From contig JAIPDO010000040.1 in assembly GCA_021737645.1 (NCBI GenBank), positions 1 to 36,122 on the forward strand: a stretch of DNA of 36,122 nucleotides. Reading direction: 5' to 3'. Both the position numbers and the translations under genes were made by a program. This document shows positions 790 to 31,378 of this stretch, in pieces; positions within the stretch are counted from its first letter, which is position 1, and every line of letters starts with the position of its first letter. The notes below the pieces were generated by a model. The model was not told where the DNA came from. It worked only from the letters and a program-made list of their open reading frames with translations, and made no database searches. The stretch comes from Desulfarculaceae bacterium. GTDB taxonomy: Bacteria > Desulfobacterota > Desulfarculia > Desulfarculales > Desulfarculaceae.

Positions 790-801
790 CCGGAGAAGTC
801 C

Positions 802-6752: not shown

Positions 6753-6824
6753 TATCGAATCTCCGCTCCTAGAACCGCTGTAAAGCAGGGGCGCGGCGGC
6801 CATGGGCCGCTGCGCCGAGGTTAA

Positions 6825-12670: not shown

Positions 12671-12672
12671 GT

Positions 12673-12923
12673 CGGCATAGCCAGACGGCGGGATGCTGCG
12701 TTGCCAAGTGTGCCGAGCTAAAATTATTCAGTGCGCGTTGGAATAGGCGGCGGCGGGTTGGAGTGGCCCTCCCGGCGACCGGCGAAGTAGTTTGCTTTCC
12801 CACCGGCACAGCCAGCCGTCGGCAGACAAGGCGTCTGGCGAGTACGGGCCGATGGCGTAGCCTGGACTACGCCGAGGACCGAGCGCAGCCAGCAACGCCG
12901 TATGCCGGTGGCTGGCGAAGCCG
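12673..12923. repeat. Structured palindromic intergenic element
   Basis: The 280-bp gap between two convergent genes is built of nested inverted repeats. The outer arms, 12673-12705 and 12891-12923, match at 24 of 33 positions as reverse complements. Within them CCACCGGC (12800-12807) pairs with GCCGGTGG (12904-12911), and at the centre GGCGTAG (12854-12860) pairs with CTACGCC (12867-12873) across a 6-nt loop. The left outer arm is also partly repeated directly near 12803-12823. No coding potential is seen. It resembles a dispersed palindromic element (REP/MITE-like) and could also end transcription of both flanking genes. Confidence 0.6.
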
Positions 12924-12949: not shown

Positions 12950-13681
12950 CTATGCGCGCCACCATAGCGCCACTGCGGTAACCAGCAGCATTAGAAAGAC
13001 TACGTAGCGGTAGAGCCGGTTGGAGGCCTTGGCAAAGGCCCAAAAGCCCAGGGCCGAGCCCGCGATCACCGCCGGGCTGTAGATCAGGGTGCCCTTGAAC
13101 ACTTCCCAGGAAAACATCCCGCCGATCCCGTAGACCACGGTCATCAGAATGAACTGGGCGCTGAAAAAGGTGGCCAGGAAGCTCTTGGCCTCGCGGGGGT
13201 CGTCGGTCACCGACATGACGTACAGCGCCGCCTGGGGGCCGCCGATGGTGTAGGCTCCCAGAAAAGAGCCGCTGAGAAAGCCGCAGAAACGGCCCCACCA
13301 GGGGCTGTGGGCATAGCGCGTGGCCAGGGCCCGGCCCGCGGGCAAAGCGTTGAACACCACCACCACCGCAATGAACCCGGCCAGGGCCCTTTTGAGCACC
13401 AGATCGGGCAGGCTGTAGAGCATGAAGGTGCCGATGGCCAGGCCCACCACCGAACCCAGCACCAGGGGGCGCATGGGTGCCCAGGAAAAGTGCCGCCGGT
13501 AGTGCCAGGCCTGGTAGAGGAACAGGGCCAAGCAATAGGGGAATTGCAGGGCCACCGCGTCGTGAATGGGCAAAAGCAGGGCCAGCAGGGGCACCGAGAC
13601 CATGGCGAAGCCAAATCCCGCGAAGCTCATGGTGAAGCCGCTGATCAGAAAGATCAGGCCCAGGGCCAGTTGCTCAGGCAT
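12950..13681 (-). CDS. TauE/SafE-family membrane permease
   Basis: 243-residue polytopic membrane protein of the TauE/SafE (sulfite/organic-anion exporter) family, with about seven to eight hydrophobic segments. Family features are LISGFTMSFAGFGFAMVSVPLL near the N-terminus and GSFLGAYTIGGPQAALYV in the second half, a repeat of the glycine-rich loop. ATG 13681 is preferred; the adjacent GTG at 13684 is in frame. It overlaps the end of the DUF1638 gene by 8 bp and is the last gene of the leftward ABC unit. Known members move sulfite, sulfoacetate or similar anions, so it may export a product of the substrate taken up by the ABC system. That link is inferred. Confidence 0.75.
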   Translation of the reverse strand: MPEQLALGLIFLISGFTMSFAGFGFAMVSVPLLALLLPIHDAVALQFPYCLALFLYQAWHYRRHFSWAPMRPLVLGSVVGLAIGTFMLYSLPDLVLKRALAGFIAVVVVFNALPAGRALATRYAHSPWWGRFCGFLSGSFLGAYTIGGPQAALYVMSVTDDPREAKSFLATFFSAQFILMTVVYGIGGMFSWEVFKGTLIYSPAVIAGSALGFWAFAKASNRLYRYVVFLMLLVTAVALWWRA

Positions 13682-14393
13682 CACTCCCGCTTTCCACCGG
13701 CAGCCTCTTGGCCTGGGGATAGAGGCTGATGTCCACCGCCTTGCCGGGAGGCATGACCGCCAAACCGGGGCCGGGACGTCCGATCAAAAGGCGGCGTAGC
13801 CAGTCCCGGTGGCCGCGCATCTGTTGAAAGGCCAGGCCAAACAGCCGGGCCATATCCTGGGCATAGCGCCGGTGGCGGGGCAATAGCCCCACCCCGGTGT
13901 CCACCAGGGCCACCCGATCATAGCTTGCCAGCATCTGCTCGCCCACCCACAGGGCGTCCTCGTGGCCGAAGCGGTCGCGGGTGGCGAAGTATTCGCTGTA
14001 GGGGGTCTGGCCGTGGTCGATCCAGCCGGGAGTGAGATAGAAGGTGCCGCCGCAGCCCACGCAGGGATTGGCCTGGGCGGAGCCCAGGAGCAGGGGCACG
14101 CAGTCGTGGGCAAGCGGCAGCACCAGAGATGCTCGTGAGGTCTTGACCCCCTGCATGCCGCCACCGCAGAAGCCGTAGCCCAGGATCACCCGATCCACCG
14201 CCGGGTCGTTTTCCAACTCGGCCAGGGCCTCGGCCAACTCCAGGTGGAGCCGGTCCGGGTAGCGGTGCAGGCCTTGGTCCAGGTAGCGGGCCTGGTTTTC
14301 GCCCACTCCCAGGCTGGCAAGTTCCGGCTGAAATACCCGGCAGGCCAGCACCCTGGTCCCATCCGGACCCCAGCCGGGGGACGGTTGGCTCAC
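13674..14393 (-). CDS. DUF1638-like protein
   Basis: 239-residue cytoplasmic protein resembling the DUF1638 family; biochemical function unknown. Cysteine-containing motifs resembling that family are visible: VLACRVFQPEL (C18), ILGYGFCGGGMQG (C76), AHDCVPLLLGS (C98) and PCVGC (C111, C114), a set that could bind a metal or cluster. The frame is open upstream to 14489, but GTG 14393 is chosen because it overlaps the stop of the preceding small gene as GTGA, a classic coupled start. From memory, members of this family are often encoded beside corrinoid methyltransferase genes, which fits the rightward operon here. An accessory role in methyl or corrinoid metabolism is plausible but unproven. Confidence 0.7.
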   Translation of the reverse strand: MSQPSPGWGPDGTRVLACRVFQPELASLGVGENQARYLDQGLHRYPDRLHLELAEALAELENDPAVDRVILGYGFCGGGMQGVKTSRASLVLPLAHDCVPLLLGSAQANPCVGCGGTFYLTPGWIDHGQTPYSEYFATRDRFGHEDALWVGEQMLASYDRVALVDTGVGLLPRHRRYAQDMARLFGLAFQQMRGHRDWLRRLLIGRPGPGLAVMPPGKAVDISLYPQAKRLPVESGSDA

Positions 14394-14578
14394 CCCCCCA
14401 GGCCCCGCAATACGAACAGGGCTATGCTCAGGCCCATGAAGGCGTAGGAGGCTCCGGAGAGGCGCCTGGCCCAGGCTGCGCCAAACCAACCGCCCGCCTT
14501 GCCCAGCATCGCGCCCAGAGCCATTAGCCCTCCGATGGCGGCCAGCACCCAGGTCAGGACAGGTAGATAAGCGGGCAT
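14390..14578 (-). CDS. Small two-helix membrane protein
   Basis: 62-residue protein with two hydrophobic helices (about 5-24 and 43-59) separated by a short basic loop (WARR). GGGAGG lies about 7 nt before the ATG, and the stop overlaps the GTG start of the DUF1638 gene, so it is probably a real, coupled gene. I recognise no family. It sits between the ABC ATPase gene and the DUF1638 gene and may be an auxiliary membrane subunit. Confidence 0.6.
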   Translation of the reverse strand: MPAYLPVLTWVLAAIGGLMALGAMLGKAGGWFGAAWARRLSGASYAFMGLSIALFVLRGLGG

Positions 14579-14591
14579 GGCGCGCCTCCCT

Positions 14592-15458
14592 TTAGGCCCC
14601 GGAGCGGCAGGAGCCCATGAGGTCGCCCGCGCCGTCCAGTTTGGCGAAGATCTTGGCCCCTTCCTCGTACAGGGATTCCATGACTTCGCTTTTTATTTGG
14701 CGGTAGCGCTCGGTGGACAGGACCTTGAAGTCCCGGGGCCGGGGCAGGTCCACCTCCACCGTGGTCTTGATGGTGCCCGGCAGGTTGGTCATCACCAGGA
14801 TGCGGTCGCCCAGGAACAGGGCTTCCTCGATCTCCGAGGTGATGAACAGCATGGTCAAGCCGGTCTCCCGGTACAGGGTGAGCAGGTATTCCTGCATCAA
14901 CTCGCGGGTCATCACGTCCAGGCCCCGGAAAGGCTCGTCCAGGATCATCACCTTGGGGTCCATGACCAGGGCGCGGCACAACTCGGCCCGGCGCTGCATG
15001 CCTCCGCTGAGTTGGGCCGGGTACTTGTCCCGGAAGTCCTTGAGCCCCACCTTGTCCAGCAGGGCTATGGCCCGTTGCTCGGCCTCGCTCTTGTTCATGC
15101 CGCCCAGCATGGTGGGTCCGAAGGTGGCGTTTTTCATCACCGTCATCCAGGGCCACAGGGCGGTCTCCTGAAAGACCATGATGCGGTCGCGGCCCGGCCC
15201 GGTCACCGGCTTTCCGTCGATGAGCACCTTGCCGCTGTCGGCGTGGTCGTAGCCCGCGGCGATGTTGGCCAGGGTGGACTTGCCGCAGCCGCTGGGCCCC
15301 ACCAACACGGTGAGGCTGCCCCTGGGCACGGTGAAGGAGCATTTTTTCAGGGCGTTGCAGGAGGGCATGCCCGGGAGGCGAAACACACGGGTCACGTCTT
15401 CCAGGATCAACTCGCCCTTGTCTTGGTTTTGCTTGTTCTTGCCGCCGTTGTTACTCAT
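14592..15458 (-). CDS. ABC transporter ATPase, NrtD/SsuB family, H-loop Ser
   Basis: 288-residue ATP-binding subunit of a nitrate/sulfonate/taurine-type importer. Walker A is GPSGCGKST (54-62), Q-loop Q97, signature LSGGMQ (150-155) and Walker B ILDEP (172-176, D174 and E175). The switch histidine is missing: the usual THD/THE is TSE, with S208 at the histidine position. The partner ATPase at 16313-17176 keeps its histidine but has an altered signature, so the two probably pair as an asymmetric heterodimer. It is the fifth gene of the leftward unit, 22 bp after a permease gene. The C-terminal extension of about 50 residues is usual for this family. Confidence 0.88.
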   Translation of the reverse strand: MSNNGGKNKQNQDKGELILEDVTRVFRLPGMPSCNALKKCSFTVPRGSLTVLVGPSGCGKSTLANIAAGYDHADSGKVLIDGKPVTGPGRDRIMVFQETALWPWMTVMKNATFGPTMLGGMNKSEAEQRAIALLDKVGLKDFRDKYPAQLSGGMQRRAELCRALVMDPKVMILDEPFRGLDVMTRELMQEYLLTLYRETGLTMLFITSEIEEALFLGDRILVMTNLPGTIKTTVEVDLPRPRDFKVLSTERYRQIKSEVMESLYEEGAKIFAKLDGAGDLMGSCRSGA

Positions 15459-15480
15459 GTTTCTCTCCGGGCCAGCGCCC

Positions 15481-16293
15481 CTAAAAGACCTTCTTCCAGG
15501 GCATGAGCCAGTCGCCGATCATCTTGACCGCCATGCTGCTTACGTATCCCGCCAGCCCGATGCTGATCATGCCCACGATGATGCCCGGCGTGTGCCCGGC
15601 CAGATAGGCTTCCCAGGTCAGGCGGCCCAGGCCGGTGTTGCCCGCGATCATCTCGGCGGCGATCACCACGTTCCAGGTGATGCCGATGCCCACCATCATA
15701 CCGGTGACGATGCTGGGAATGGTGGCGGGCAGCACGATGCGCCAAAATACCTGGCGGGGCGAGGCGCCGAAGGACACCGCCGCGTCCACCAACTGGCGGG
15801 GGATGGCGCTCACCCCACCCAGCACGTTTACCACGATGGTAAAAAAAGCCCCAATAAAGGTGATGAAGGCGATGGAGCTTTCATTGGTGGGCCAAAACAG
15901 GATGGACACCGGGACCCAGGCCAGGGGCGGAATGGGCCGCATCAGCTCGAACAAGGGATAGGTGAAATCCTTGAAATTGCGGTTCCAGCCCATGCCCAGC
16001 CCCAGGGGGATGCCCAGGATCTGAGCAGCCACGAAGCCATAGGTGACCCTGAGGGTGGAGTCCATCCAGCTTTGCCAATATTTGCCGGTGCCCATGAACT
16101 CCCAGAAGGCTTCGGCCACGGTTACCGGGGTGGGTATGGCGTGCATAAAGGGCATAAGCCCCATGGAGCCCGCCTGCCACAGGACGAAAAAGCCGATGAC
16201 CGCCAGGGTTCCACGGGTGAAGTGTTTGCTCGCTAAGAATTTGCGCATCTTATAAGCAACGGATGCGCCGTTCATGGTTGCTGCTCTAGCCAT
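15481..16293 (-). CDS. ABC transporter permease 2, NrtB/SsuC family
   Basis: 270-residue inner-membrane permease of the nitrate/sulfonate/taurine importer type with about six helices. The EAA-type loop that docks the ATPase is visible as FGASPRQVFWRIVLPATIPS around residues 173-192. ATG 16293 (MARAAT) is preferred over an upstream in-frame ATG because GGGAG lies about 6 nt before it and the gene then begins after the preceding stop. It is homologous to the permease at 17192-18103 (both contain RPIPPLAWVP), so the membrane part is likely a heterodimer. Confidence 0.88.
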   Translation of the reverse strand: MARAATMNGASVAYKMRKFLASKHFTRGTLAVIGFFVLWQAGSMGLMPFMHAIPTPVTVAEAFWEFMGTGKYWQSWMDSTLRVTYGFVAAQILGIPLGLGMGWNRNFKDFTYPLFELMRPIPPLAWVPVSILFWPTNESSIAFITFIGAFFTIVVNVLGGVSAIPRQLVDAAVSFGASPRQVFWRIVLPATIPSIVTGMMVGIGITWNVVIAAEMIAGNTGLGRLTWEAYLAGHTPGIIVGMISIGLAGYVSSMAVKMIGDWLMPWKKVF

Positions 16294-16312
16294 GCTTGGC
16301 TCCCTGTTCCGG

Positions 16313-17176
16313 TTAGGCCATTTCGCGTTCGCCGGCCTCAAAGGCCTTGACCGCTTCTTCGTGCACCGCCTCCACCAATTGGGCCTTCATGGCCAAGAAC
16401 TCCTCCGAGGCCAGCATGGAATATTGCCGGGGACGGGGCAGGTTGACCTGCAAGGTCTTTTTGATGTAGCCGGGCCGGGTGGTCATCACCAGCACCTTGT
16501 CGGCCAGGAAGATGGCCTCTTCCAGGTCGTGGGTGATGAAAAAGATGGTCTTGCCGGTGGCGTCGTACAGCTCCAGCAGATACTGGTGGCTGGCGCTCTT
16601 GGTCACGGTGTCCATGGCCCTAAACGGCTCGTCCAACAGCAGCACCTTGGGGTTGTTGATCAGCGCACGGATAATCTCCACCCGCCGCTGCATTCCCGAG
16701 GAGAGCTGGCCGGGGTAGGAGGTCTCGATGTCGTTGAGCCCCACCCGAGAGAGCATCTCCTGGGCCCGCTTGTTGGCGGCCTCCTCGCTCATGGCTCCTT
16801 GCGCCACCGGGCCGTAGGTCACGTTTTCCAAGACCGTTTTCCAGGGGAACAGGGCTCCGTGCTGGAACACCACCACCCGGTCCGGTCCGGGGCTGGGGTC
16901 CTTGTCCACCGTGGCCAGCGGCTCCCCGTCCAGGAGTATCTCCCCGGAGGTGAGGCCGTCGAAGCCGGCGATGGTGTTGAGCAGGGTTGATTTGCCGCAG
17001 CCGCTGGGGCCCACGATGGCCACGAACTCGCCGGCGGCGATCTCCAACGAGCAGTTTTTAAGGGCCACCACGTGGACCCCTTCCGGGTCGTAGATCTTGC
17101 CCACGTCGCGGATGGACATGGCCCCTTCGCTGGCCCGGCAGGCCGCTTCAGGCGTATTCATGTTTGTTTGTTCCAT
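16313..17176 (-). CDS. ABC transporter ATPase, NrtD/SsuB family, altered signature
   Basis: 287-residue ATP-binding subunit. Walker A is GPSGCGKST (56-64), Q-loop Q105, Walker B LLDEP (180-184, D182 and E183), and the switch histidine H216 is present in FITHDLEEA. The signature is LSSGMQ (158-163) instead of LSGGMQ. Together with the H-loop change in the other ATPase this places both deviations in the same composite nucleotide site of a heterodimer. GGGGAAG precedes the ATG. The gene lies 15 bp after permease 1 and 19 bp before permease 2. Confidence 0.88.
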   Translation of the reverse strand: MEQTNMNTPEAACRASEGAMSIRDVGKIYDPEGVHVVALKNCSLEIAAGEFVAIVGPSGCGKSTLLNTIAGFDGLTSGEILLDGEPLATVDKDPSPGPDRVVVFQHGALFPWKTVLENVTYGPVAQGAMSEEAANKRAQEMLSRVGLNDIETSYPGQLSSGMQRRVEIIRALINNPKVLLLDEPFRAMDTVTKSASHQYLLELYDATGKTIFFITHDLEEAIFLADKVLVMTTRPGYIKKTLQVNLPRPRQYSMLASEEFLAMKAQLVEAVHEEAVKAFEAGEREMA

Positions 17177-17191
17177 GCTTTTCTTCCCCGC

Positions 17192-18103
17192 CTAGGAGCC
17201 GTAGAGTTCGCGCTCGCGCCAGGCCATGAGCTTACGGCCCACGCTGCGCACCGCCGCGCTGGACACCCAGCCGATGACCCCCAGGGTGGCCATGCCGATG
17301 ACGATGACCGGGTACTGGATGAGCGAGTAGCTGTCCCAGATCAAAAAGCCCAGGCCGTACTGGGCGGCGATCATCTCGCCGGCCACCAGTGAGAACCAGG
17401 CGGCCCCCATGGAGATTTGCAGGCCGGTGAAGATGAAGGGCATGGCCCCGGGCAGCACCACGTCGAACAACAGGCGTCTCTTGTCGGCCCCCAGGCAGCG
17501 AGCCGCCCGGAAGTAGCTCTCGTCGATGGATTCAACCCCCAGCAGGGTGTTGAGCGCGGTAACGAAGAAAGCCACCAGGAAGGTTACGAAGATGACCGCT
17601 GGTTCGTCGCCGGGCAGAATGAGGATGGCCAAGGGCACCCAGGCCAGGGGCGGGATGGGCCGGATCAGCTCCACCAGGGGGTAGGAGTAATCGTAGAACT
17701 TGCGGCTCCAGCCCATCAGCAGGCCCATGGGCACCCCCAACAGAGTGGCCAGCACAAAGGCGGTGGTGGCCCGGTAGGTGCTGTAGATGATGTGGGTGTA
17801 GTAGTCTTCGGTGTAGATGGAGATGCCGTAGTCCGGGTCCGGGCTGAGCCACTCCAAAAGACATTCCCAGGGCCCCGGCAGGCGGCTGAACCAGGGCAGG
17901 CTGAAGGTCTTGACCGTCAGCTCCCAAACCACCACAAAGGCCACGAATCCGCCCAGTTGCAACAGGAAGCTCCTGCTGGTCAGGGTCTTGCGGATCTGGT
18001 GCCCCCAGGAAATCTCGTACAGGTGGGCTTTTTTCTTTTGCTGCCAGGCGCCCACCGCCAATACGGCCATCAGCAAAAGGCCCAAAACTATATATGGGTT
18101 CAT
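17192..18103 (-). CDS. ABC transporter permease 1, NrtB/SsuC family
   Basis: 303-residue permease with an extra N-terminal hydrophobic segment (residues 2-20) ahead of the six-helix core (about 45-290). RPIPPLAWVP lies in the first half of the core and the EAA-type loop RCLGADKRRLLFDVVLPGAM in the second. Slightly longer than permease 2. Second gene of the leftward unit, separated from the binding-protein gene by 122 bp that contains a strong hairpin (18153-18185). Confidence 0.88.
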   Translation of the reverse strand: MNPYIVLGLLLMAVLAVGAWQQKKKAHLYEISWGHQIRKTLTSRSFLLQLGGFVAFVVVWELTVKTFSLPWFSRLPGPWECLLEWLSPDPDYGISIYTEDYYTHIIYSTYRATTAFVLATLLGVPMGLLMGWSRKFYDYSYPLVELIRPIPPLAWVPLAILILPGDEPAVIFVTFLVAFFVTALNTLLGVESIDESYFRAARCLGADKRRLLFDVVLPGAMPFIFTGLQISMGAAWFSLVAGEMIAAQYGLGFLIWDSYSLIQYPVIVIGMATLGVIGWVSSAAVRSVGRKLMAWRERELYGS

Positions 18104-18152
18104 GACGCTGTCATCCCATCCTTAGGTGCATTAGCCGGATGCCTTGCTTGGG

Positions 18153-18185
18153 CCCTTTCCCGCCCGGAGCCCGGGCGGGAAAGGG
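18153..18185. repeat. Strong 15-bp stem hairpin between binding protein and permease genes
   Basis: CCCTTTCCCGCCCGG (18153-18167) and CCGGGCGGGAAAGGG (18171-18185) are perfect 15-bp arms around a 3-nt loop. TTTT follows on the plus strand only. On the leftward transcript it would be a 3' stabilising or attenuating hairpin that raises binding-protein mRNA over the downstream genes, a common arrangement in ABC operons. On the plus strand it would be a good terminator, perhaps against antisense reads. Confidence 0.8.
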
Positions 18186-18225
18186 TTTTCATCGCTTACG
18201 GGGCAAGCTAAAGGCGCATCCGCCC

Positions 18226-19353
18226 TTATTCGCCGGTATAGGCGCTGGCGGGCAGGCCCTTGATCACCGCCACCGGAGCCTTCACGCCCATTTCCTTCAT
18301 GGCCTCGGTAACCGGGCCCTCGTTGATGGCGCCCTTGGGGATGTCGCCGGACTTGAGCACCTTGAGGCTGTGCAGGAACTCGTAGCCCTTCTTCATTAGA
18401 TCCAACACCCTGGGGGAGAAGACCATCTCGCCCACGTAGACCACCTCGTCGCCACCCACGGACTCGGGGTGTTTCTCATACAGGGCCTTCCACAGGATCT
18501 TGGGGGTGTAGCCCTGGGTCTCTTTCATGACCATCTTGGCCACGCCCATGGGGTCTTTTTCCATGATCTGCAGGGCCTCGATCTCGGCCTTGAGCCAGCC
18601 CTTGGCCGCCTCGGGGTGCTTCTCGATGAAGTCCTGACGCATCAGGGTGAAGTTGGCGTCCAACTCGCCATAGGGAGAACCGGTGGCCGCGTACTTGGCG
18701 AAGCCCTGCTCCACCACCTTGCGGGCGTGGGGCTCCCACATGGCCGCCGCGTCAATCTTGCCGGCCTCAAAGGAGCTGGCGATGACCTCGATGGTCATGT
18801 ACTGGAGCCGCTTGGGCTTGACCTTGTTCTTCTTGAGCACCGACTCGAAAAAGCGGTTGGCGCAGGTGCCGCGGTGCACGGCCAGCATTTTGCCGTTCAT
18901 CCACTTGATGGCCTCGGCGGGGCTTTTGAAGTCGGGGGCGTCCTTGCGAACCACGATGAGGTTGCAGTTCTGGCCATTGCTGATCATGGGCACCGACACC
19001 AAACGGATGTCGCCTTGCTTTTTCTTGGTGGTGGCCACCAAGGAGGGCATGTCGCCCATAGTGCCGACTTGCATTTTGTCGGCCAACAGAGCGTTGACCA
19101 TGGGCGGGCCGGTAAGGTGAGCCTCGAAGTTTACCTTGCTGCCCTTGGGCAGGTACTTCTTCCACAGGCCCATTTGTTTGATGACCACTCCGCTCCATCC
19201 GCCGGTCCAATAGGGATGGTAGCCGTAGGTGATCTCCACCGGCTCAGCCGCCTGAACCGGAGCCGCCACCGTACCGATAACGGCCGCTGAGAACATCAGC
19301 AGGCCGGCCACGATGCCGGTGACCTTGGCTAGGTGAGAAAATTTCTTGATCAT
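18226..19353 (-). CDS. ABC substrate-binding protein, NMT1/SsuA/TauA type
   Basis: 375-residue periplasmic solute-binding protein of the nitrate/sulfonate/taurine (NMT1/THI5-like) fold. The signal peptide occupies residues 1 to about 35 (ends VQA-AEP). Family features include GTMGDMPSL, the interlobe segment AVHRGTCANRFFESVLKK and a strand with IDAAAMWEPH. The frame opens upstream, but ATG 19353 has AAGGAGG 9 nt before it and begins the signal peptide. First gene of the leftward unit, about 85 nt after the predicted -24/-12 start. The ligand is unknown; from the adjacent corrinoid system a methylated compound is the best guess. Confidence 0.88.
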   Translation of the reverse strand: MIKKFSHLAKVTGIVAGLLMFSAAVIGTVAAPVQAAEPVEITYGYHPYWTGGWSGVVIKQMGLWKKYLPKGSKVNFEAHLTGPPMVNALLADKMQVGTMGDMPSLVATTKKKQGDIRLVSVPMISNGQNCNLIVVRKDAPDFKSPAEAIKWMNGKMLAVHRGTCANRFFESVLKKNKVKPKRLQYMTIEVIASSFEAGKIDAAAMWEPHARKVVEQGFAKYAATGSPYGELDANFTLMRQDFIEKHPEAAKGWLKAEIEALQIMEKDPMGVAKMVMKETQGYTPKILWKALYEKHPESVGGDEVVYVGEMVFSPRVLDLMKKGYEFLHSLKVLKSGDIPKGAINEGPVTEAMKEMGVKAPVAVIKGLPASAYTGE

Positions 19354-19448
19354 AATGAAAAACCTCCTTGGCGCTCCGTGTTGTGGCCCGCGGGGGCTAC
19401 ACTTGGGAAGAGCCGACGCTCCACCCACCTCTTGCTAAGGCTTATGTG

Positions 19449-19464
19449 TGCAGTTGGCATGCCA
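19449..19464 (-). promoter_or_regulatory. Sigma-54 promoter for the ABC importer operon
   Basis: On the minus strand the sequence reads TGGCAT-GCCAA-CTGCA. The invariant GG and GC are exactly spaced and only peripheral bases differ from consensus. The -24 half lies inside a 12-bp perfect palindrome TTGGCATGCCAA (19454-19465). The predicted start near 19438 leaves a leader of about 85 nt before the binding-protein gene. Confidence 0.65.
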
Positions 19465-19596
19465 AGGAGGGGGCCGCGCCGCTCAAGGAGCGCACCAAAA
19501 CCGGTCCGGCGCGGTTATGTCCTATCAATCAAGGCAGTTATAAGTTTCATGCTATTTGAGGGCCTCGCCAGGTCCAGCTCCTCCACGGCGCAGTTC

Positions 19597-19646
19597 CGGT
19601 GCCTATCGACACCGAGACGCCGAATTTTGGTGCAAAACAGCACCAA
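19597..19646. promoter_or_regulatory. Pair of GGTG-N8-CACC sites, candidate activator enhancer
   Basis: Site 1, CGGTG-N8-CACCG, spans 19597-19614. Site 2, TTGGTGC-N6-GCACCAA, spans 19627-19646. Both contain GGTG-N8-CACC, and the cores start 31 bp apart (19598 and 19629), about three helical turns. They sit between the two divergent -24/-12 promoters, roughly 160-220 bp from each start, where enhancer sites of sigma-54 activators normally lie. The activator is not identified. Confidence 0.6.
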
Positions 19647-19818
19647 GATTGGCCCCACCGCACCCCCGGAAACGGGAGCCCGGCGGGTAACAACCTATTT
19701 AATTCGGGAGTTTCTCGAGGCTTTTTGGTGGGCGTTTAGGCTTTTTATATCCTTATTACACAAAGTTATGCTAATTATAGCCTGCGGGGGGCCAAAAGGT
19801 GCCCATTTTCTCCTTGGG

Positions 19819-19834
19819 TGGCACACATATTGAA
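19819..19834 (+). promoter_or_regulatory. Probable sigma-54 promoter for the methyltransferase operon
   Basis: TGGCAC-ACATA-TTGAA matches the -24 element perfectly. The -12 element has GA in place of GC at the correct spacing, so it is weaker than the other three in the window. The predicted start near 19844 gives a leader of about 70 nt containing a hairpin. Confidence 0.5.
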
Positions 19835-19865
19835 GTACCTCTCCCCGACAGACGCCGATAATTCC

Positions 19866-19890
19866 GGCGGGCCTAATTTATTCGCCCGCC
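19866..19890 (+). repeat. Hairpin in methyltransferase operon leader
   Basis: GGCGGGC (19866-19872) pairs with GCCCGCC (19884-19890) across an 11-nt A/T-rich loop. It ends 11 nt before the GGGAGG ribosome binding site, so it could stabilise the 5' end of the message or affect ribosome access. No cobalamin-riboswitch B12 box is seen in this region. Confidence 0.5.
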
Positions 19891-19914
19891 CACAGCCAGC
19901 AGGGAGGACATCCT

Positions 19915-20955
19915 TTGGCAGAGAAAGCTCACATTCCCCTTGGCGTGGGGTTCTACCCCGACTGGTGGAAAGCAAACTACGGCATCACCTTCGGCAGGGA
20001 CTATTACTATGATCCCGACTACCGGGTCGAGGTGGGCCTGAAGCAGCAGAAGGCCCTGTACGAGCGCTTCGGCGACGTGGGCCTGGGCCAGGCCGATCCC
20101 CAGCCTAAGCCCCTGATCTCCTTCGGCATGGTTATGCTGCCGGCCATCTTCGGCTGCGAGATCGTCTTCGAAGAGGCCGCCCTGCCCTGGGCCATGCCCC
20201 TGAACCTCTCGGCCGAGGAGTGCGACAAGCTGGTCAAGCCCGACCTGACCAAGGTTGAGCCCATGGCCTCGGTACTGAAACAGATCGACCACCTCAAAAG
20301 CAAGTACGGCAAGGTGGTGGGCGACATCAACGTGACCGGCGTGCAGAACCTGGCCCTCAAAATCCGGGGCGACGAGCTTTACATGGACTACTACGAGGAG
20401 CCGGAGTTCGCCCATCGGCTGCTCACCTTCTGCTCCGAATGCATCATCGACCTGTGGAAGTTCATCTACCCCATCACCGGCACCGGCGCGGTGGACGTGA
20501 CCCCCATGTGCGACCCCACCATCTTCTGCGTGCCCAACTGCACCGTGGAGCAGATCAGCGGCGACACCTACGAAGAGTTCGGCCTGCCCTACGACAACAT
20601 GCTGGCCGAGGCCTGCCATCCCTTCGGCATCCACCACTGCGGCAGCCTGGACCCGGTAGTGGAGCATTACGCCAAGGTCAAGAACCTGGTGTTCATGGAG
20701 GCCGGTTTCGGCACCGACTTCGCGGCGGCCCGCAAGATCCTGGGCCCTGACGTGGCCTTCAACGCCCGCATCAGCCCGGTGCTGATGAAAAACGGCACCG
20801 CCGAGGAGGTGGCGGCCACGGTCAAGGACGCCATCGACCAGGGCGCGCCCTTGTCCAACTACTCCATAGACACCGTGGGTCTCACCGACGGGGTGCCCGA
20901 CGAGAACGTGCGGGCCGCCCGGCGCATGGCCATGGAATACGGCCTGATCGGTTAA
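19915..20955 (+). CDS. UroD-family corrinoid methyltransferase
   Basis: 346-residue cytoplasmic TIM-barrel protein of the uroporphyrinogen decarboxylase superfamily, in the branch that moves methyl groups to or from corrinoid proteins (MtaA, MtbA, MtsA and O-demethylase components). The zinc-site start HHC is present at residues 240-242 (GIHHCGS). No cysteine occurs after C242, so the third Cys ligand of the MtaA/MtbA HxC...C site is missing. The start is TTG at 19915 with GGGAGG 7 nt before it. It is the first gene of a unit continuing with pterin methyltransferase and corrinoid protein, so it is the likely substrate:corrinoid methyltransferase. True UroD is unlikely given this context. Substrate could be a methoxylated, methylated-amine or methyl-sulfur compound. 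Confidence 0.82.
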   Translation: MAEKAHIPLGVGFYPDWWKANYGITFGRDYYYDPDYRVEVGLKQQKALYERFGDVGLGQADPQPKPLISFGMVMLPAIFGCEIVFEEAALPWAMPLNLSAEECDKLVKPDLTKVEPMASVLKQIDHLKSKYGKVVGDINVTGVQNLALKIRGDELYMDYYEEPEFAHRLLTFCSECIIDLWKFIYPITGTGAVDVTPMCDPTIFCVPNCTVEQISGDTYEEFGLPYDNMLAEACHPFGIHHCGSLDPVVEHYAKVKNLVFMEAGFGTDFAAARKILGPDVAFNARISPVLMKNGTAEEVAATVKDAIDQGAPLSNYSIDTVGLTDGVPDENVRAARRMAMEYGLIG

Positions 20956-20977
20956 CCCACCCTAAGCAAAGGCAAGA

Positions 20978-21838
20978 ATGATGCAGACCGTAATCAGCAG
21001 CCCCAGCCGGGAAGTGATCATTGGCCACGACCAGCCGGTGGTCATGATCGGCGAGCGCATAAACCCCACGGGCCGCAAAAAGCTGGCCGCCGCCCTGGAA
21101 AAGGGCGATATGAGCCTGGTGCAAAAAGAGGCCATGAACCAGGTGGCCGCCGGGGCCCAGGTCTTGGATGTGAACGTTGGCGTCTCGGGCGCGGATGAAA
21201 AGGACTTGATGCTCCAGGCCTTGCAGGCCATCACCGAGGTGGTGGACGTGCCCCTGTGCATCGACTCGGCCAAGCCCGAGGTGCTGGCCGTGGGCCTGGA
21301 GGCCTACAAGGGCAAGGCCCTGGTCAACTCGGTCAACGGCGAAGAGGCCAAGCTCAAGGAGGTCTTGCCCCTGGTGGCCCAGTACAAAGCGGCGGTGGTG
21401 GCCCTGACCATGGACGATAAAGGCATCCCCACCGACGTGGCCACCCGCCTGGCCATCGCCGACAAGATCGTGAACGAGGCGGCCAAGCTGGGCATTCCCC
21501 TGGAGGACATCGTCATCGATCCCCTGGCCATGAGCGTGGCCGCCGACGACTCCGCCGGTCTGGCCGCCCTGGAGGCTTTGGCGGGCATCAAGAAGAACCT
21601 GGGGGTCAACCAGACCATCGGGGCCAGCAACGTCTCCTACGGCTTGCCGGACCGCAGGGCCATCAACGCCACCTTTTTGGCCATGGCGGTGATGGCCGGG
21701 CTCACCTGCCCCATCACCGACCCCACCGTTTGGCCCGTACGCAGAACCTTGCTCATCAGTGACCTTCTGACCGGCAAGGACGAATACGCCATGAACTATA
21801 TCACCGCCTATAGGGAACAATTCCCCGAAGAAGACTAA
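20978..21838 (+). CDS. Pterin-binding methyltransferase, AcsE/MtrH-like
   Basis: 286-residue cytoplasmic TIM-barrel methyltransferase of the dihydropteroate-synthase/MeTr superfamily. Motifs in order: GERINPTG (25-32), DVN (64-66), DSA (96-98), NSVNGE (117-122), D181-PLA and GASNVSYGLP (215-224). These are the pterin-binding residues of AcsE-type methyltetrahydrofolate:corrinoid methyltransferases. In this operon it probably works in the direction methyl-corrinoid plus tetrahydrofolate to methyl-tetrahydrofolate, feeding the Wood-Ljungdahl pathway. It starts 22 bp after the UroD-family gene. It could instead serve the acetyl-CoA pathway directly, but no CODH/ACS genes are in view. Confidence 0.88.
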   Translation: MMQTVISSPSREVIIGHDQPVVMIGERINPTGRKKLAAALEKGDMSLVQKEAMNQVAAGAQVLDVNVGVSGADEKDLMLQALQAITEVVDVPLCIDSAKPEVLAVGLEAYKGKALVNSVNGEEAKLKEVLPLVAQYKAAVVALTMDDKGIPTDVATRLAIADKIVNEAAKLGIPLEDIVIDPLAMSVAADDSAGLAALEALAGIKKNLGVNQTIGASNVSYGLPDRRAINATFLAMAVMAGLTCPITDPTVWPVRRTLLISDLLTGKDEYAMNYITAYREQFPEED

Positions 21839-21865
21839 GGCGAGCAGAACTGAAGAGGAGAAAAC

Positions 21866-22513
21866 GTGGCTGACTTGCAGGCAATCAAGGAAGCGGTAAG
21901 CAAGGGCAAACGCAAGGACATCGTAGGGCTGGTGCAGGCCGCCCTGGACGACGGCGCGGACCCCAACACCATAATCAACGACTACATGATCGAGGCCATG
22001 AAAGAAGTGGGCGCCCGCTTCGAGGCCAAGAAGATCTTCGTGCCCGAGATGATGATCGCCGCGCGCACCATGCAGACGGGCCTGGACGTGATCAAGCCCA
22101 TTTTGGAGTCCCAAGGCTCCCAAAAAGAGACCGTTGGCACCGTGGTCATCGGCACCGTGTTCGGCGATTTGCACGACATCGGCAAGAACCTGGTGGTGCT
22201 GATGCTGGAAAGCTCGGGCTTTGAGGTTTTTAACATCGGCGAAAACGTGCCGCCGGAGAAGTTTCTGGAAAAGGCCAAGGAGCATGGCGCCGACATCGTG
22301 GGGCTGTCCAGCCTGCTGACCACCGGCGACCCCCATGTGAAGGCCACGGTGGAGGCCATCAAAGCCAGCGACCTGGCGGGCAAGGTGAAGGTGGTCTGCG
22401 GCGGCGCGGCGGTCACCCGCAAATTCGCGGTGGATCAGTGCGGGGCCGACGGCCACGCCACCGACGCGGTGGACGCGGTGAAGACCATCAAGCAGTTGAT
22501 GAACTTGAATTAG
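21866..22513 (+). CDS. Methyltransferase corrinoid protein, MtaC/MtbC type
   Basis: 215-residue two-domain corrinoid carrier. An N-terminal helical cap (about 1-85) precedes a Rossmann-type B12 domain (about 90-213). The cobalt-ligating motif DLHDIG is at 101-106, with H103 as lower ligand, and SSLLTTG and GGAAVT match the other B12 loops. The start is GTG 21866, preceded by AGAGGAG. It shuttles the methyl group between the UroD-family and pterin methyltransferases encoded just upstream. A strong terminator follows immediately. Confidence 0.92.
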   Translation: MADLQAIKEAVSKGKRKDIVGLVQAALDDGADPNTIINDYMIEAMKEVGARFEAKKIFVPEMMIAARTMQTGLDVIKPILESQGSQKETVGTVVIGTVFGDLHDIGKNLVVLMLESSGFEVFNIGENVPPEKFLEKAKEHGADIVGLSSLLTTGDPHVKATVEAIKASDLAGKVKVVCGGAAVTRKFAVDQCGADGHATDAVDAVKTIKQLMNLN

Positions 22514-22535
22514 ACTCTCCCCTACCTCCCTGCAA

Positions 22536-22585
22536 GGCGCGCGGGGCCTCTCCCCCCCTCTACCGCCCCGCGCGCCGTTTTTTTT
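22536..22585 (+). terminator. Intrinsic terminator after the corrinoid protein gene
   Basis: GGCGCGCGGGG (22536-22546) pairs perfectly with CCCCGCGCGCC (22566-22576) across a 19-nt loop, followed by eight T (22578-22585). It lies between the three abundant methyl-transfer components and the activator genes, so readthrough would give lower levels of the latter. Confidence 0.88.
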
Positions 22586-22598
22586 ACCGGGAGCGACC

Positions 22599-24443
22599 AT
22601 GCCCCGAGCCGGTGACGAGCAAGTAACTTTCCAGCCCATGGGGCGCCGGGCCGATCCCCAGCCCGGCCACAACCTGTTGCAACTGGCCCAAAACGCCGGA
22701 GTGGGCCTGGAGGCCCCCTGCGGAGGCAAGGGCCTGTGCGGCAAGTGCCGAGTGCGCCCCGAAGGCCAGGCCACTCCCCTCACCCCAGCCGAGAAGGCCC
22801 TGCTGGGCCCGGAAGCCGGGTTGGGCCTTCGCCTGGCCTGCCAGACTGCCCTGCCCCAGGGCGGCGCGGTGTGGGTGCCTCCGGAGAGCCGCAGCCAGCG
22901 CCAGGTGATACTGACCAGCGGGCAAAGCGGTGAGCTGGAGTTGGACCAGGCGGTGCGGGCCTATCCGGTCAGGGTGCCCCCGCCCAGCCTGAAACAGCCC
23001 GAGGCGGCCCAGGAGCGCATTTTCAGCGCCCTGGCGGCCGTCGCCGCTGACCGCCTGAGTAGTTCGCCGGAGCTTCCCTTCAGTCTTTTGCAACGCCTGC
23101 CCGGCCTGCTGGCGGGCGGCGGCGACCTCAAGGTGACCCTGCGCAAGGGCCGCGAGATCGTGGACCTGGGTACGGCCCAGGAAGGCCCTCCCTTGGGCCT
23201 GGCCGTGGACCTGGGCACCACCACGGTGGTGGCCTATCTGTGCGACCTGGACAGCGGCAAGCTGTTGGCGGTCAGCTCGGAGATGAACCCCCAGGTGCCA
23301 TACGGCGACGACGTGATCTCGCGTATGTCCCTGTGCGCCGGTGGTCCCCAGGAGTTGTCCAAGCTGAGCCGAGCGGCGGTGGAGTGCGTCAACGCTCTGG
23401 CCCTGGACGCCTGCGCCCAGGCCGGGGCCCGGCCCAGCCGCATCCTGGAATGCGTCATGGTGGGCAACTCGGCCATGCACCACATTTTCCTGGCCCTGGA
23501 CCCAGCCTCTCTGGCCATAGCGCCCTATGCCCCGGTGGCGCGCGGCCCGGTGGAGGTAAAGGCGCGCCAGGCGGGCCTGGCCCTGGGGCTCGAGGCCTGG
23601 CTGTACTGGCTGCCGCTGAAGGCCGGATTCGTAGGCGCGGACATCGTGGCCGCCGCCTTGGCCGTGGGAGCCGATGAACTGGAAGAGCCCACTCTATTGC
23701 TGGATCTGGGCACCAACGGCGAGATGGTTTTGGCCGCGGGCGGGCGCATGCTGGCCTGCTCCACCGCCGCAGGCCCGGCCTTGGAGGGCGGGCACATCGC
23801 CCAGGGCATGCGCGGCGCGCCGGGCGCGGTGGAACGGGCCACTCTGGAGCCGGGCGCGGCCTCGGCCGGCCTGCGGGTCATCGGCGGTCAGCGGCCAGTG
23901 GGTTTTTGCGGCTCGGGCCTGGTCTCGCTCATAAGCTGCCTGCTGCAAGCAGGCGCGCTGCTGCCATCCGGCGGTTTTGACCCGGAGCGAGGCAAGGGCC
24001 TGGTGCGGCCCGGCGAACACGGCCTGGAGTTCGTGGCCGCCCCCGCCGGGGCCACCGGTCATGGAAGAGATTTGGTGCTCACCAGCCAGGACGTGGCCGA
24101 GGTGCAGTTGGCCAAGGCGGCCATCCGGGCCGGGGCCGAGGTGCTCATGGCCGAGATGGGCATCGAACGCATCAGCCGGGTCCTGTTGGCCGGAGCGTTC
24201 GGCAACTACCTGGATCCAGGCGAGGCGGCCCGCATCGGCCTGTTCCCGCCGGTGCCCGTGGAGCGCATCCTGGGGGTGGGCAACGCCGCCGGGGTGGGCG
24301 CGGTGATGGCCCTCTTGAGCCAAAAGCAGCGCCGCCGTGCCGAAGAGTTGGCCCAAGCCATGGGCTACGTGGAGCTTTCCGGCCACCCACTGTTCCAGGA
24401 TTTGTTTGTGGACAGCATGGCCTTCCCCGGCGGGGACGCCTGA
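22599..24443 (+). CDS. RACo-type corrinoid activation protein
   Basis: 614-residue cytoplasmic protein that reactivates inactive Co(II) corrinoid proteins by ATP-dependent reduction. An N-terminal [2Fe-2S] ferredoxin domain has C41, C47, C50 and C81 (CGGKGLCGKC). A linker follows, then the large ASKHA/DUF4445 domain with DLGTTT (204-209), SEMNPQVPYGDDVISRM (227-243) and DLGTNGE (369-375). Length and order match RACo of acetogens. GGGAG precedes the ATG. It lies after the terminator at 22536-22585, so it is expressed by readthrough or from a promoter I cannot see. Its stop overlaps the start of the GTPase gene (TGATG). Confidence 0.92.
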   Translation: MPRAGDEQVTFQPMGRRADPQPGHNLLQLAQNAGVGLEAPCGGKGLCGKCRVRPEGQATPLTPAEKALLGPEAGLGLRLACQTALPQGGAVWVPPESRSQRQVILTSGQSGELELDQAVRAYPVRVPPPSLKQPEAAQERIFSALAAVAADRLSSSPELPFSLLQRLPGLLAGGGDLKVTLRKGREIVDLGTAQEGPPLGLAVDLGTTTVVAYLCDLDSGKLLAVSSEMNPQVPYGDDVISRMSLCAGGPQELSKLSRAAVECVNALALDACAQAGARPSRILECVMVGNSAMHHIFLALDPASLAIAPYAPVARGPVEVKARQAGLALGLEAWLYWLPLKAGFVGADIVAAALAVGADELEEPTLLLDLGTNGEMVLAAGGRMLACSTAAGPALEGGHIAQGMRGAPGAVERATLEPGAASAGLRVIGGQRPVGFCGSGLVSLISCLLQAGALLPSGGFDPERGKGLVRPGEHGLEFVAAPAGATGHGRDLVLTSQDVAEVQLAKAAIRAGAEVLMAEMGIERISRVLLAGAFGNYLDPGEAARIGLFPPVPVERILGVGNAAGVGAVMALLSQKQRRRAEELAQAMGYVELSGHPLFQDLFVDSMAFPGGDA

Positions 24444-25477
24444 TGCGCCTGGTCACGGTGGGCGGCTTTCTGGGGGCGGGCAAGACCTCCCTGCTGCAGG
24501 GCCTGGCCCGCTGGTGGGGCGAGCAGGGCCAACGCCTGCTGGTCCTGGAAAACGAGGCCGGTCAGGTGGGCCTGGACGACCGCCTGCTGCGCGACCTTTC
24601 CCTGGAGGTGCGCCTGTTGCCCGGCGGCTGCGCCTGCTGCGATCTGCAAGGCGTGCTGGTGGACAAGCTCAAGCAGGCCCTGGAGGAGGACAGCTGGGAT
24701 CTGGTGCTGCTGGAGCCCAGCGGGGTGGCCTCTTTAGCCTCCCTGGGCCAAGTGCTCGAGCGCTATGTGCCCGAGCTGGGCCAAGGGATCACGGCCACCG
24801 TTGTCGACGCCTCCCGCCACGCCACCATGACCAAGGCCTTGCCCAAGCTGCTGGCCGATCATCTGGCCGCCTCCAGCCAGGTGGTGCTCTCCAAGGCGGA
24901 CCTCATGCCCGCCGAGGAGGTGAAGCGCATCGGTGCCCAACTTCGCCTGGGCGCGCCCCAGGCCCAGGTATGGCCGGTGGACTTGCGCGGCACCGGGGCC
25001 TATGAGCTGGCCCGGGAGGTGGCCCCCCGTTTGCTGGCAAGCGAGACCACACCGGACCTCGCATCTACTACTGCGGGTGACGGGCCCCACCAAGCCCAGT
25101 CCTATGCACTCAACTTGCCGGAAAACGGACTCTCGCACCAGGCGGCTAAAAGCTTGGTTGGCAGCATCATCGCCGCGCTGCCGGCGCCAGGCCAGGACTG
25201 GCTGGGCCATGTGAAGCTGTGGGGCGAGGACGCTTCGGGCGGTCATCTGTTGGCCAGCGGCACCACGGCCCAGGACGTGTCCAGCCGGGGCGACTCATCC
25301 GGTTCCCTCACCGGCCGGGCCTGGCTGGTGGTCATCAGCCATCAACCCCTGCCCCCCGACCTGGACGAGACCCTGCACCGCCTGTTGACCCAGGCCGCGC
25401 CGGGCGCTTGTTTGGAGCCGGTGCGCTCGGCTCCTTCCCTGTTTTCATTGGGATCACTGGGACAGCCCAAGGCCTGA
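24443..25477 (+). CDS. CobW/G3E-family GTPase metallochaperone
   Basis: 344-residue P-loop GTPase of the G3E group (CobW, UreG, HypB, YjiA). Walker A is GGFLGAGKT (7-15), the metal-binding CxCC is C63-A-C65-C66 (GGCACC), LLEPSGVA is at about 108-115 and the base-specificity motif is SKAD. A divergent C-terminal half follows. Its ATG overlaps the RACo stop codon by one base, so the two are coupled and probably act together. It may supply metal (zinc for the methyltransferase, or cobalt) or assist cobalamin loading. It ends 13 bp from the convergent regulator gene. Confidence 0.85.
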   Translation: MRLVTVGGFLGAGKTSLLQGLARWWGEQGQRLLVLENEAGQVGLDDRLLRDLSLEVRLLPGGCACCDLQGVLVDKLKQALEEDSWDLVLLEPSGVASLASLGQVLERYVPELGQGITATVVDASRHATMTKALPKLLADHLAASSQVVLSKADLMPAEEVKRIGAQLRLGAPQAQVWPVDLRGTGAYELAREVAPRLLASETTPDLASTTAGDGPHQAQSYALNLPENGLSHQAAKSLVGSIIAALPAPGQDWLGHVKLWGEDASGGHLLASGTTAQDVSSRGDSSGSLTGRAWLVVISHQPLPPDLDETLHRLLTQAAPGACLEPVRSAPSLFSLGSLGQPKA

Positions 25478-26936: not shown

Positions 26937-26966
26937 ATTCATATCCTTGAAGATGTGCTGCGTTTT

Positions 26967-26980
26967 AGCCACATGTGGCT
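26967..26980. promoter_or_regulatory. AGCCACATGTGGCT palindrome, candidate regulator site
   Basis: Perfect 14-bp palindrome 31 bp before the regulator start codon. It contains the same GCCACA/TGTGGC half-sites as 27144-27160, in the opposite arrangement, so one protein may bind both. Confidence 0.45.
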
Positions 26981-27143
26981 CAAGTGCAACATAGAAAATA
27001 TATGATTCAGCAAGCCCCTTGCAAGACAAATAGGGCCTCCCAGCCCCACACCCCACATTGTGAACCCGGCATAAACATGGCCACATTCCCTTTTAGAGAA
27101 CAATTCCTATCATTTTCATAAAATTATCATTGAAGTAAAAACA

Positions 27144-28773: not shown

Positions 28774-28774
28774 T

Positions 28775-30121: not shown

Positions 30122-30145
30122 GCACAGTGTATAAACGCGGCCCTT

Positions 30146-30164
30146 GTTTCGGCGGGAGCGAAAC
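30146..30164. repeat. Short inverted repeat before TRAP genes
   Basis: GTTTCG (30146-30151) and CGAAAC (30159-30164) flank a 7-nt GC-rich loop in the 138-bp gap between the CoA-transferase and TRAP binding-protein genes. No T-run follows, so it is more likely an mRNA-processing or stabilising hairpin than a terminator. No clear promoter is seen in the gap. Confidence 0.35.
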
Positions 30165-30259
30165 GGGCTTTGACCCAAGTGAAAATTGAACCAGTCAAGT
30201 TACCGAAAAACGTGTTGGCTGAGGAAAACCTCGGCAAGAGATTCACAGGAGGGAAGACT

Positions 30260-31288: not shown

Positions 31289-31309
31289 GCCCGCAAACGA
31301 TCCACCCTA

Positions 31310-31353
31310 CCTTGGGCCGTTCGCCCCGCCTCGGCGCGGCGGGCGGTCCAAGG
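31310..31353. repeat. Imperfect hairpin between DctP and DctQM genes
   Basis: CCTTGGGCCG...CGCCCCGCC on the left pairs imperfectly with GGCGGGCGGTCCAAGG on the right (outer arms CCTTGG 31310-31315 and CCAAGG 31348-31353). No T-run follows. It probably raises binding-protein mRNA relative to the membrane subunit. Confidence 0.5.
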
Positions 31354-31378
31354 CCTCTCACGGAGATAAGCAGCGCTC

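Follow-up and report, generated by a model that had tools for sequence, protein, structure and literature searches.

We analyzed a window of 36,122 nt, contig C55 of a Desulfarculaceae genome (G000; 4.05 Mb, 94% complete), and found at positions 12950-25477 two divergent operons that probably encode a catabolic module for corrinoid-dependent demethylation; its substrate would be a small methylated organic acid, either a sulfonate or a carboxylate. The mechanism class, corrinoid-dependent methyl transfer, is well supported. The cluster probably points to an undescribed anaerobic use of a methylated organic acid in little-studied sulfate reducers. Dimethylsulfoniopropionate (DMSP), betaines and methanesulfonate are important marine carbon and sulfur pools; to our knowledge, which organisms remove methyl groups from such acids anaerobically, and how, is only partly known.

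The window was compared with an order-level set of 21 genomes (including G000), a phylum-level set of 395 sampled genomes, and 42 UroD loci from a profile scan of genome contigs; G and L numbers denote the genomes and loci compared. All 42 loci are titled as metagenome-assembled genomes, and six are labelled other than Desulfobacterota/Deltaproteobacteria. Matches among them were counted by identity, with a threshold for each gene but none for coverage, and the counts thus include partial matches at contig ends; many of the stretches end early, and some compared loci are an identical contig present in two collections. Motif positions of the UroD zinc site and of the crotonase glutamate sites were matched by eye.

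The divergent operons and the methyltransferase core

All thirteen open reading frames (ORFs) at 12950-25477 were intact, and their Pfam matches agreed with the families that a first-pass annotation of this DNA had given them. The rightward operon runs from UroD through the AcsE-like protein, the corrinoid protein and RACo to CobW, and the leftward one from the binding protein through permease, ATPase, permease, ATPase, a 62-aa hydrophobic protein and DUF1638 to TauE. Two flanking PAS-sigma54 activators, absent from the first-pass gene list, complete the features:

9857..12670, forward strand: PAS-sigma54 activator flanking the left side, candidate regulator of both operons
12950..13684, reverse strand: TauE/SafE-family permease (PF01925, E 2.5e-27), candidate exporter of sulfite or another anion
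13674..14489, reverse strand: DUF1638 protein, probably corrinoid-side (PF07796, E 2.4e-36; exact start uncertain)
14390..14578, reverse strand: 62-aa hydrophobic protein, no Pfam match, met only in importer-type loci
14592..15458, reverse strand: ABC importer ATPase 2 (PF00005, ABC_tran)
15481..16341, reverse strand: ABC importer permease 2 (PF00528, BPD_transp_1)
16313..17176, reverse strand: ABC importer ATPase 1 (PF00005), 60-65% identical to importers beside sulfonate enzymes or a corrinoid system
17192..18103, reverse strand: ABC importer permease 1 (PF00528)
18226..19353, reverse strand: NMT1-type substrate-binding protein, SsuA/TauA-like (the ORF extends to 19428; the ATG at 19353 is the likelier start)
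19449..19464, reverse strand: sigma54-type promoter candidate of the importer operon, TGGCATGCCAACTGCA, partly invariant in 7 loci
19598..19644, unstranded: doubled inverted repeat GGTGC-N6-GCACC with one mismatch in the first copy, a likely activator site
19819..19834, forward strand: sigma54-type promoter candidate of the methyltransferase operon, TGGCACACATATTGAA, with TGGCA and TTG invariant in 7 loci
19915..20955, forward strand: UroD-family methyltransferase, candidate methyltransferase I (MT-I; PF01208, URO-D, E 2.8e-15; best PDB match 4ay8)
20978..21838, forward strand: AcsE-like methylcorrinoid:tetrahydrofolate methyltransferase (MT-II; PF00809, Pterin_bind; NF005719 309.6 bits, cut-off 259)
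21866..22513, forward strand: corrinoid protein, B12-binding with cap, the sole PF02607 match found in the genome
22599..24443, forward strand: RACo corrinoid reductive activase with all four domains (PF14574, PF17651, PF17650, PF00111)
24443..25477, forward strand: CobW-type GTPase (PF02492), linkage not invariable
25491..27086, reverse strand: second PAS-sigma54 activator, flanking the right side

As the first-pass annotation had held, the rightward operon carries a complete corrinoid methyl-transfer set: the URO-D, Pterin_bind, capped B12-binding and RACo domains lie in one unit, which thus contains all four components of a four-component corrinoid methyltransferase system. The model of the UroD-family protein (predicted local distance difference test score, pLDDT, of 90) was closest to the M. 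mazei methyltransferase 4ay8/4ay7 (E 8e-14, template-modelling score about 0.7). H240 and C242 of the HxC zinc motif were invariant in 32 sequences, as were the nearby D319 and E262, and the position of the third cysteine is occupied by V321. Assignment as a classical S-methyltransferase with a His-Cys-Cys zinc site was rejected on this residue; the canonical motif is found in the paralog L031, and the MtaA/CmuA profile TIGR01463 scored 66.5 bits (cut-off 235.4). According to the available text of Kountz and Balskus, S-methyltransferases have His-Cys-Cys and O-methyltransferases have carboxylates or non-coordinating residues (PMC10418091); by these classes, as far as that text goes, the incomplete zinc site would make a thiol or thioether an unexpected partner, while it would permit donors of the O-methyl, onium or sulfonate kind. 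Plasmid-borne relatives were of little use, with one record each for the binding protein (27.8%) and the UroD-family protein (32.2%). A UroD relative (32%) on a Subdoligranulum plasmid (L131:8971-10038) lies beside apparent amino-sugar genes (by eye), and no corrinoid-type gene was recognised by eye near it.

In 12 of 30 complete loci (among L070-L086) UroD, the AcsE-like protein and the corrinoid protein form one open frame of 866-877 codons; such a fusion speaks clearly for consecutive roles of the three proteins. The domain order of the fused form (UroD, pterin-binding, cap, B12) is that of a MetH-like polypeptide. In G000, whose assembly could contain a collapsed repeat, no B12-binding cap domain was found outside the corrinoid protein, so the UroD-family and AcsE-like proteins have no other obvious partner there. 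Against the AcsE profile of the carbon monoxide dehydrogenase/acetyl-CoA synthase complex (NF040758), MT-II scored 129.6 bits (cut-off 370); acetyl-CoA synthase itself (PF03598) was found in G000 and in 15 of the 21 genomes of the order.

Conservation, shared control region and partner genes

A UroD search of the order gave matches in 18 of the 21 genomes at E<=0.001, and in 15 of them the best match was at least 69% identical, some matches being pieces at contig ends. The importer adjoins the core in eight genomes: seven of the eight genomes of the genus (G000, G004, G005, G006, G008, G009 and G010) and one genome of another genus (G014). The eighth genome of the genus, G007, is fragmented, and its stretches show a TRAP-type locus and a copy ending at a contig end. 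Relatives keep the gene order, at 41-95% identity per gene, as far as contig ends allow; this recurrence indicates that the arrangement is not due to chance, and within the genus the two units are conserved together, as had been proposed. The 62-aa gene was 51-73% identical in five other loci of the genus and was not found in L040 in the synteny comparison; CobW was 71-73% identical in L032 and L050. The activator at 9857-12670 also adjoins TauE in L032, L034, L035, L036 and L049 and lies between the two operons in L040; the stretch of L046 ends before showing its place.

Among the 42 UroD loci the AcsE-like gene was present in 33, the corrinoid protein in 31, RACo in 28, the crotonase in 24, DUF1638 and the alpha subunit of a CoA-transferase in nine each, the TRAP binding protein in eight, and CobW (at least 25% identity) and the importer in five each. 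TauE was seen in four of these five importer loci, the stretch of the fifth ending early, and no stretch among the 42 held both crotonase and importer. The core of UroD, AcsE-like protein, corrinoid protein and RACo is therefore more widespread than the importer, and the earlier idea of a conserved thirteen-gene unit gives way to a conserved core that is often joined by a crotonase/CoA branch.

DUF1638 had been thought to handle either the demethylated product or the corrinoid, and the comparison favored the corrinoid side. Five of the nine DUF1638 loci carried the core with no importer seen, two of these stretches being short; DUF1638 lay at most 700 bp from UroD in L057, L063, L066, L068 and L069 with no importer in the stretch, L063 and L068 having little sequence on that side. 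In Phaeobacter inhibens, DUF1638 and RamA-like genes match the fitness pattern of B12-dependent methionine synthesis and methionine rescues the mutants, although the authors made no specific proposal for DUF1638 in the text available (PMC5764234). DUF1638 and RamA proteins are also reported, in the available part of PMC12478193, to be more abundant in Ruegeria on N-osmolytes. A search of solved structures gave a best E of 0.37. The occurrence without importer and the genetic tie to RamA-like reactivation in Phaeobacter, as given in the text available, argue for a corrinoid-side protein, best called, by analogy, a corrinoid activation partner; on the same importer-free loci and the same part of PMC5764234, a product-handling enzyme was ruled out.

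The intergenic region between the binding protein and UroD was aligned for seven importer loci, and its elements were conserved. The element TGGCAC-N5-TTGAA points to UroD (19819-19834) and TGGCAT-N5-CTGCA to the importer (19449-19464), and between them lie two inverted repeats, 134 and 175 bp from the promoter elements, a common enhancer distance for sigma54 promoters. The strict doubled-repeat pattern occurred at six places in five of the 21 whole genomes of the order, each beside the present system, and its reversed control gave no match in the 21 genomes; the two places in G003 lie at separate contig ends with identical sequence and could represent a single site. When the pattern was loosened, repeat pairs appeared in 15 of 69 sequences (the window plus 68 loci); among these 15 are the TRAP- or crotonase-type loci L039/L055, L056, L060, L064, L066 and L109. 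No pair appeared in 30 mononucleotide-shuffled versions of the window. The shared control region, conserved in seven loci, suggests that the two operons are probably co-regulated, in line with the first-pass proposal.

The binding protein was nearest to TauA, SsuA and PDB 3e4r and fell below every NCBIfam cut-off among the matches listed. Cut-offs of the sulfonate importers SsuABC/TauABC were likewise not reached by the SsuA family profile (113.9 bits, cut-off 163.5), by TauC (146.0, cut-off 342) or by the taurine ATPase profile (207.8, cut-off 357, among the best 25 of 186-187 ATPase matches). Permease 1 was found at E<=1e-55 in 10 of the 395 sampled genomes of the phylum, five of them of this genus. 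In three of the five genomes outside it (G059, G204 and G369), the same five-gene importer order adjoins a sulfonate glycyl-radical enzyme or lies one regulator gene from it. These enzymes scored 1409-1560 bits on sulfopropanediol dehydratase HpsG (cut-off 1000), and the best solved match of the G204 enzyme was isethionate sulfite-lyase 7kq3; the adjoining activases scored 427 bits in G059 and 363 bits in G369 (cut-off 430), and no activase was recognised in the G204 stretch. In G330, an unrelated genome, genes for a corrinoid protein, a different UroD, an AcsE-like protein and a PhsA-like oxidoreductase fall inside roughly 12 kb of the importer and are separated from it by further genes; this one case of a related importer near corrinoid/UroD genes supports the first-pass reading. 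The more distant relative in G401 had neither glycyl-radical nor corrinoid genes in 15.4 kb. Identity to the four close relatives is 48-65% for the membrane and ATPase parts and only 31-35% for the binding protein, suggesting that the present importer may differ from its relatives in the ligand itself though not in the class of ligand. In the available text of PMC6453916, the isethionate importers described beside the lyase are of TRAP or MFS rather than ABC type. The association of ABC importer and lyase is known here from gene neighbourhood. Near the glycyl-radical enzyme and importer relative of G059 there is also a gene for an EutM-like microcompartment shell protein (L147:15944-16228).

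At other loci the partners of the core are an unusual crotonase, a TRAP transporter, and either a CoA-transferase or an acyl-CoA ligase. Of the 15 genomes of the order that have this UroD, 12 also carry a crotonase ortholog (at least 57% identity); G012, G014 and G017, where it was not found, are 70-85% complete. The remaining six of the 21 genomes, which lack this UroD, gave crotonase matches of only 27-43%. Active enoyl-CoA hydratase needs two catalytic glutamates, both of which the partner crotonase lacks: H113 and G134 stand at the canonical positions in 25 of 25 sequences (by eye, from an alignment with 5zai). The nearest solved chains were 3myb and human ECHDC3 2vx2, and assignment as a DmdD-like hydratase or feruloyl-CoA hydratase/lyase was lowered by the missing glutamates. 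An AMP-type acyl-CoA ligase and a crotonase, both profiled, adjoin the fused form of L085, which is encoded at 10001-12688; L073 and L082 show ligase and crotonase, and L080 the ligase only (ligase by eye). For the TRAP binding protein, the closest match was a keto-acid binder, and a lactate binder matched as well. The crotonase/CoA branch is the strongest hint that a carboxylic acid is the substrate or the remainder, and speaks against plain methanesulfonate.

G004, G006 and G009 each carry an importer-type as well as a TRAP-type cluster, and G008 has a second UroD copy beside crotonase and CoA-transferase, with no TRAP gene seen. On the single contig of G004, identity between the two copies is 100% (rounded) in 200-bp windows along some 3.2 kb, a segment that starts in the middle of UroD, takes in AcsE and the corrinoid protein, and ends within RACo. 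The G008 copies of UroD are 100% identical in the last 600 bp and 78-92% in the first 400 bp; those of G009 are less alike (70-98% per window). Such near-identity resembles the outcome of gene conversion, or else of a recent duplication, of the catalytic part, and copies of this kind in single genomes probably perform the same chemistry, whereas the first 400 bp of UroD, type-specific in G008 and G009, may carry the donor difference. In G004 the TRAP-type copy of UroD (L033:9994-12236) is interrupted by an insertion that carries two transposase-like ORFs, IS3-like by eye, and the importer-type copy is intact. A conserved protein encoded between the CoA-transferase and TRAP genes of TRAP-type loci (L033:1962-3065 and orthologs) shows GGCFP after a signal-like stretch (by eye) and had no NCBIfam match at 1e-8.

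Two further blocks of the window were noted. Positions 27406-35969 hold a separate catabolic cluster of two overlapping class III CoA-transferases, a TRAP binding protein, a fused DctQM, an alpha/beta hydrolase and a class I CoA-transferase; it was not counted in the system, since a reverse-strand regulator intervenes and the 4.1 kb after CobW in L032 gave no match. Positions 142-7157 encode a PhsA-like molybdopterin oxidoreductase (564.8 bits, cut-off 694), an FeS protein, cytochromes b and c, two rhodanese proteins and a TorD-like chaperone. This block also stands beside the activator in G004 (L150) and partly in G006 (L034) and was not seen at the corresponding place in G008 or G009; PhsA-like enzymes also adjoin RACo in L067 and the importer in G330.

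Proposed pathway and competing explanations

We infer the direction of methyl flow, the importer cargo, the substrate and the binding of the regulator as follows. The ABC importer would take up a small methylated organic acid, the UroD-family protein would transfer its methyl group to Co(I) of the corrinoid protein, and the AcsE-like protein would pass it on to tetrahydrofolate. Methyl-folate would then enter the Wood-Ljungdahl pathway, for oxidation in sulfate respiration or for carbon gain, which fits the acetyl-CoA synthase encoded in G000. RACo, with DUF1638 and probably CobW, would hold the corrinoid in its active state, TauE would probably export an anionic product such as sulfite, and a sigma54 activator acting at the doubled inverted repeat would turn on both operons.

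The genomic hints to the methyl donor diverge, the importer and TauE pointing to a sulfonate and the crotonase/CoA branch to a carboxylate. We tentatively place an O- or N-methyl acid of another kind at the head of the candidates, regard a sulfonate-bearing compound as possible, and think a sulfonium or thioether carboxylate such as DMSP somewhat unlikely. A corrinoid-dependent desulfonation of methanesulfonate, in which the importer would bring in CH3SO3-, UroD would move the methyl group to Co(I), sulfite would leave, TauE would balance sulfite, and the methyl group would be oxidised while sulfite is reduced, is a highly speculative case; by formula, CH3SO3H -> CO2 + H2S + H2O is redox-neutral, so one compound would be both donor and acceptor. 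Known C-S cleaving mechanisms include glycyl-radical, monooxygenase and thiamine-dependent ones, and the route, if true, would be distinct from these three.

Several observations weigh against the demethylation module as drawn. The importer was not seen in 37 of the 42 UroD loci, some of whose stretches end early, so it may not carry the usual substrate of the core. The UroD-family protein lacks the third cysteine of known S-methyltransferase zinc sites, and the structure prediction of the binding protein was poor (pLDDT 43.5). G000 also has the partner crotonase and CoA-transferase on contig C100, whose presence a plain sulfonate would not explain; no UroD occurred in the 19.9 kb of that contig seen around the crotonase. 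Strict doubled repeats fail in four of the eight importer-type genomes, where the copies are more degenerate, and a whole-genome scan of G000 gave no second strict repeat, its crotonase locus included. Generic sigma54 patterns were not in significant excess in the window (13 found, 9.2 expected); the promoter calls rest on cross-genome conservation.

One alternative is that the core is a split methionine synthase, passing methyl from methyl-folate through the corrinoid protein to homocysteine on the UroD-family protein. The fused form mirrors MetH, the profile TIGR02082 scores 289 bits on it (cut-off 1010.85), and the MetH homocysteine domain PF02574 is found in only two of the 21 genomes of the order and has no match in G000; a MetH-like methionine synthase would itself carry that domain. 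However, G001, G002, G016 and G018 (92-99% complete) have neither the core nor PF02574 nor PF01717 yet can presumably synthesise methionine, G000 itself contains a MetE-core gene, if a weak one (22.8 bits), the UroD-family protein lacks the third zinc cysteine, and the importer linkage and PAS-sigma54 control suit catabolism. This survey of methionine genes lowered the reading, which we consider very unlikely. Across the order, the MetE-core domain PF01717 was found, weakly, in six of the 21 genomes. Alternatively, the importer might carry a sulfonate such as isethionate or taurine as a sulfur or electron source, the co-regulated core serving another donor that enters, for example, via a TRAP transporter. 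Its relatives beside isethionate/sulfopropanediol-type glycyl-radical enzymes and its rarity among the UroD loci fit such a division. Yet the best G000 match to a sulfonate glycyl-radical enzyme is not close (27% identity), Pfam pointed to no other sulfonate-cleaving gene in 12950-25477, the binding protein is just 31-34% identical to those of importers beside such enzymes, and a related importer lies near a second corrinoid system. We regard this division as rather improbable; moreover, a sulfonate can itself be methylated, so the sulfonate-enzyme neighbours do not refute a methylated substrate.

Sulfate reducers demethylate DMSP with folate as acceptor, and the cluster could belong to an anaerobic pathway for DMSP or methylthio-carboxylates, in which UroD would demethylate the sulfonium and CoA-transferase or ligase and crotonase would process the remaining acid, in parallel to DmdB-DmdD. 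Consistent with this, 24 of the 42 loci include the crotonase, which across the order, at 57% identity or more, accompanies this UroD in 12 of 15 genomes and is missing from all six that lack it; an AMP-type acyl-CoA ligase also stands next to the fused form of L085, and ligases were recognised by eye in L073, L080 and L082. A sulfonium should also need no zinc activation, which fits the incomplete site. The His and Gly in all 25 crotonases are unlike a hydratase, though, the TRAP binding protein sides with keto-acid and lactate binders, the importer is sulfonate-like, and inspection by eye of the ORF starts in nine loci, not all of them profiled, revealed no acyl-CoA dehydrogenase. We find this pathway unlikely and prefer the demethylation module with a small methylated acid of broader definition. 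For such a module, the apparently co-regulated binding protein offers direct ligand screening, the one-polypeptide fused form simplifies enzymology, and the missing glutamates of the crotonase imply unfamiliar chemistry.

Relation to known systems

Three-component corrinoid O-demethylases and the chloromethane system (OdmABCD, VdmB, MtvABC and CdmBCA) share with the present system, as far as the available text of PMC13222342 shows, a UroD-superfamily MT-I, a corrinoid protein, a folate MT-II and an activase. UroD matches CdmB weakly (E 3e-5, C-terminal part), and the present system differs from them by a dedicated importer and DUF1638 and, at other loci, by the crotonase/CoA partner and the fused form. 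With the MtaA/CmuA/MtsA family it has in common the UroD fold and the HxC half of the zinc site, whereas the third cysteine is absent and the score lies below cut-off. Type 1 mlp clusters have several Mlps (at least Mlp2 and Mlp3) and were first described without a folate methyltransferase, according to the available text of PMC10418091; here there is one URO-D protein among those scanned in 12950-25477, a genome-wide search for URO-D not having been made, together with a folate methyltransferase.

From the MtgABC glycine betaine system, the corrinoid protein resembles MtgC (165.9 bits, cut-off 370), and DUF1638, which rises with RamA on N-osmolytes in Ruegeria in the available part of PMC12478193, is also found here. 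In contrast, no MttB-family MT-I was found by Pfam in 12950-25477, and MT-II scored 19.6 bits against MtgA (cut-off 550). The SsuABC/TauABC importers share component families and the best profile and PDB matches with the present importer, whose relatives stand beside IslA/HpsG-type enzymes; it differs by two permeases and two ATPases, a lineage-restricted binding protein and scores below the cut-offs listed. No description of this gene combination was found in the PMC literature searched, mostly at listing level. The UroD family, the fused form, the lineage-specific importer and the altered crotonase together are a new variation on known corrinoid demethylation.

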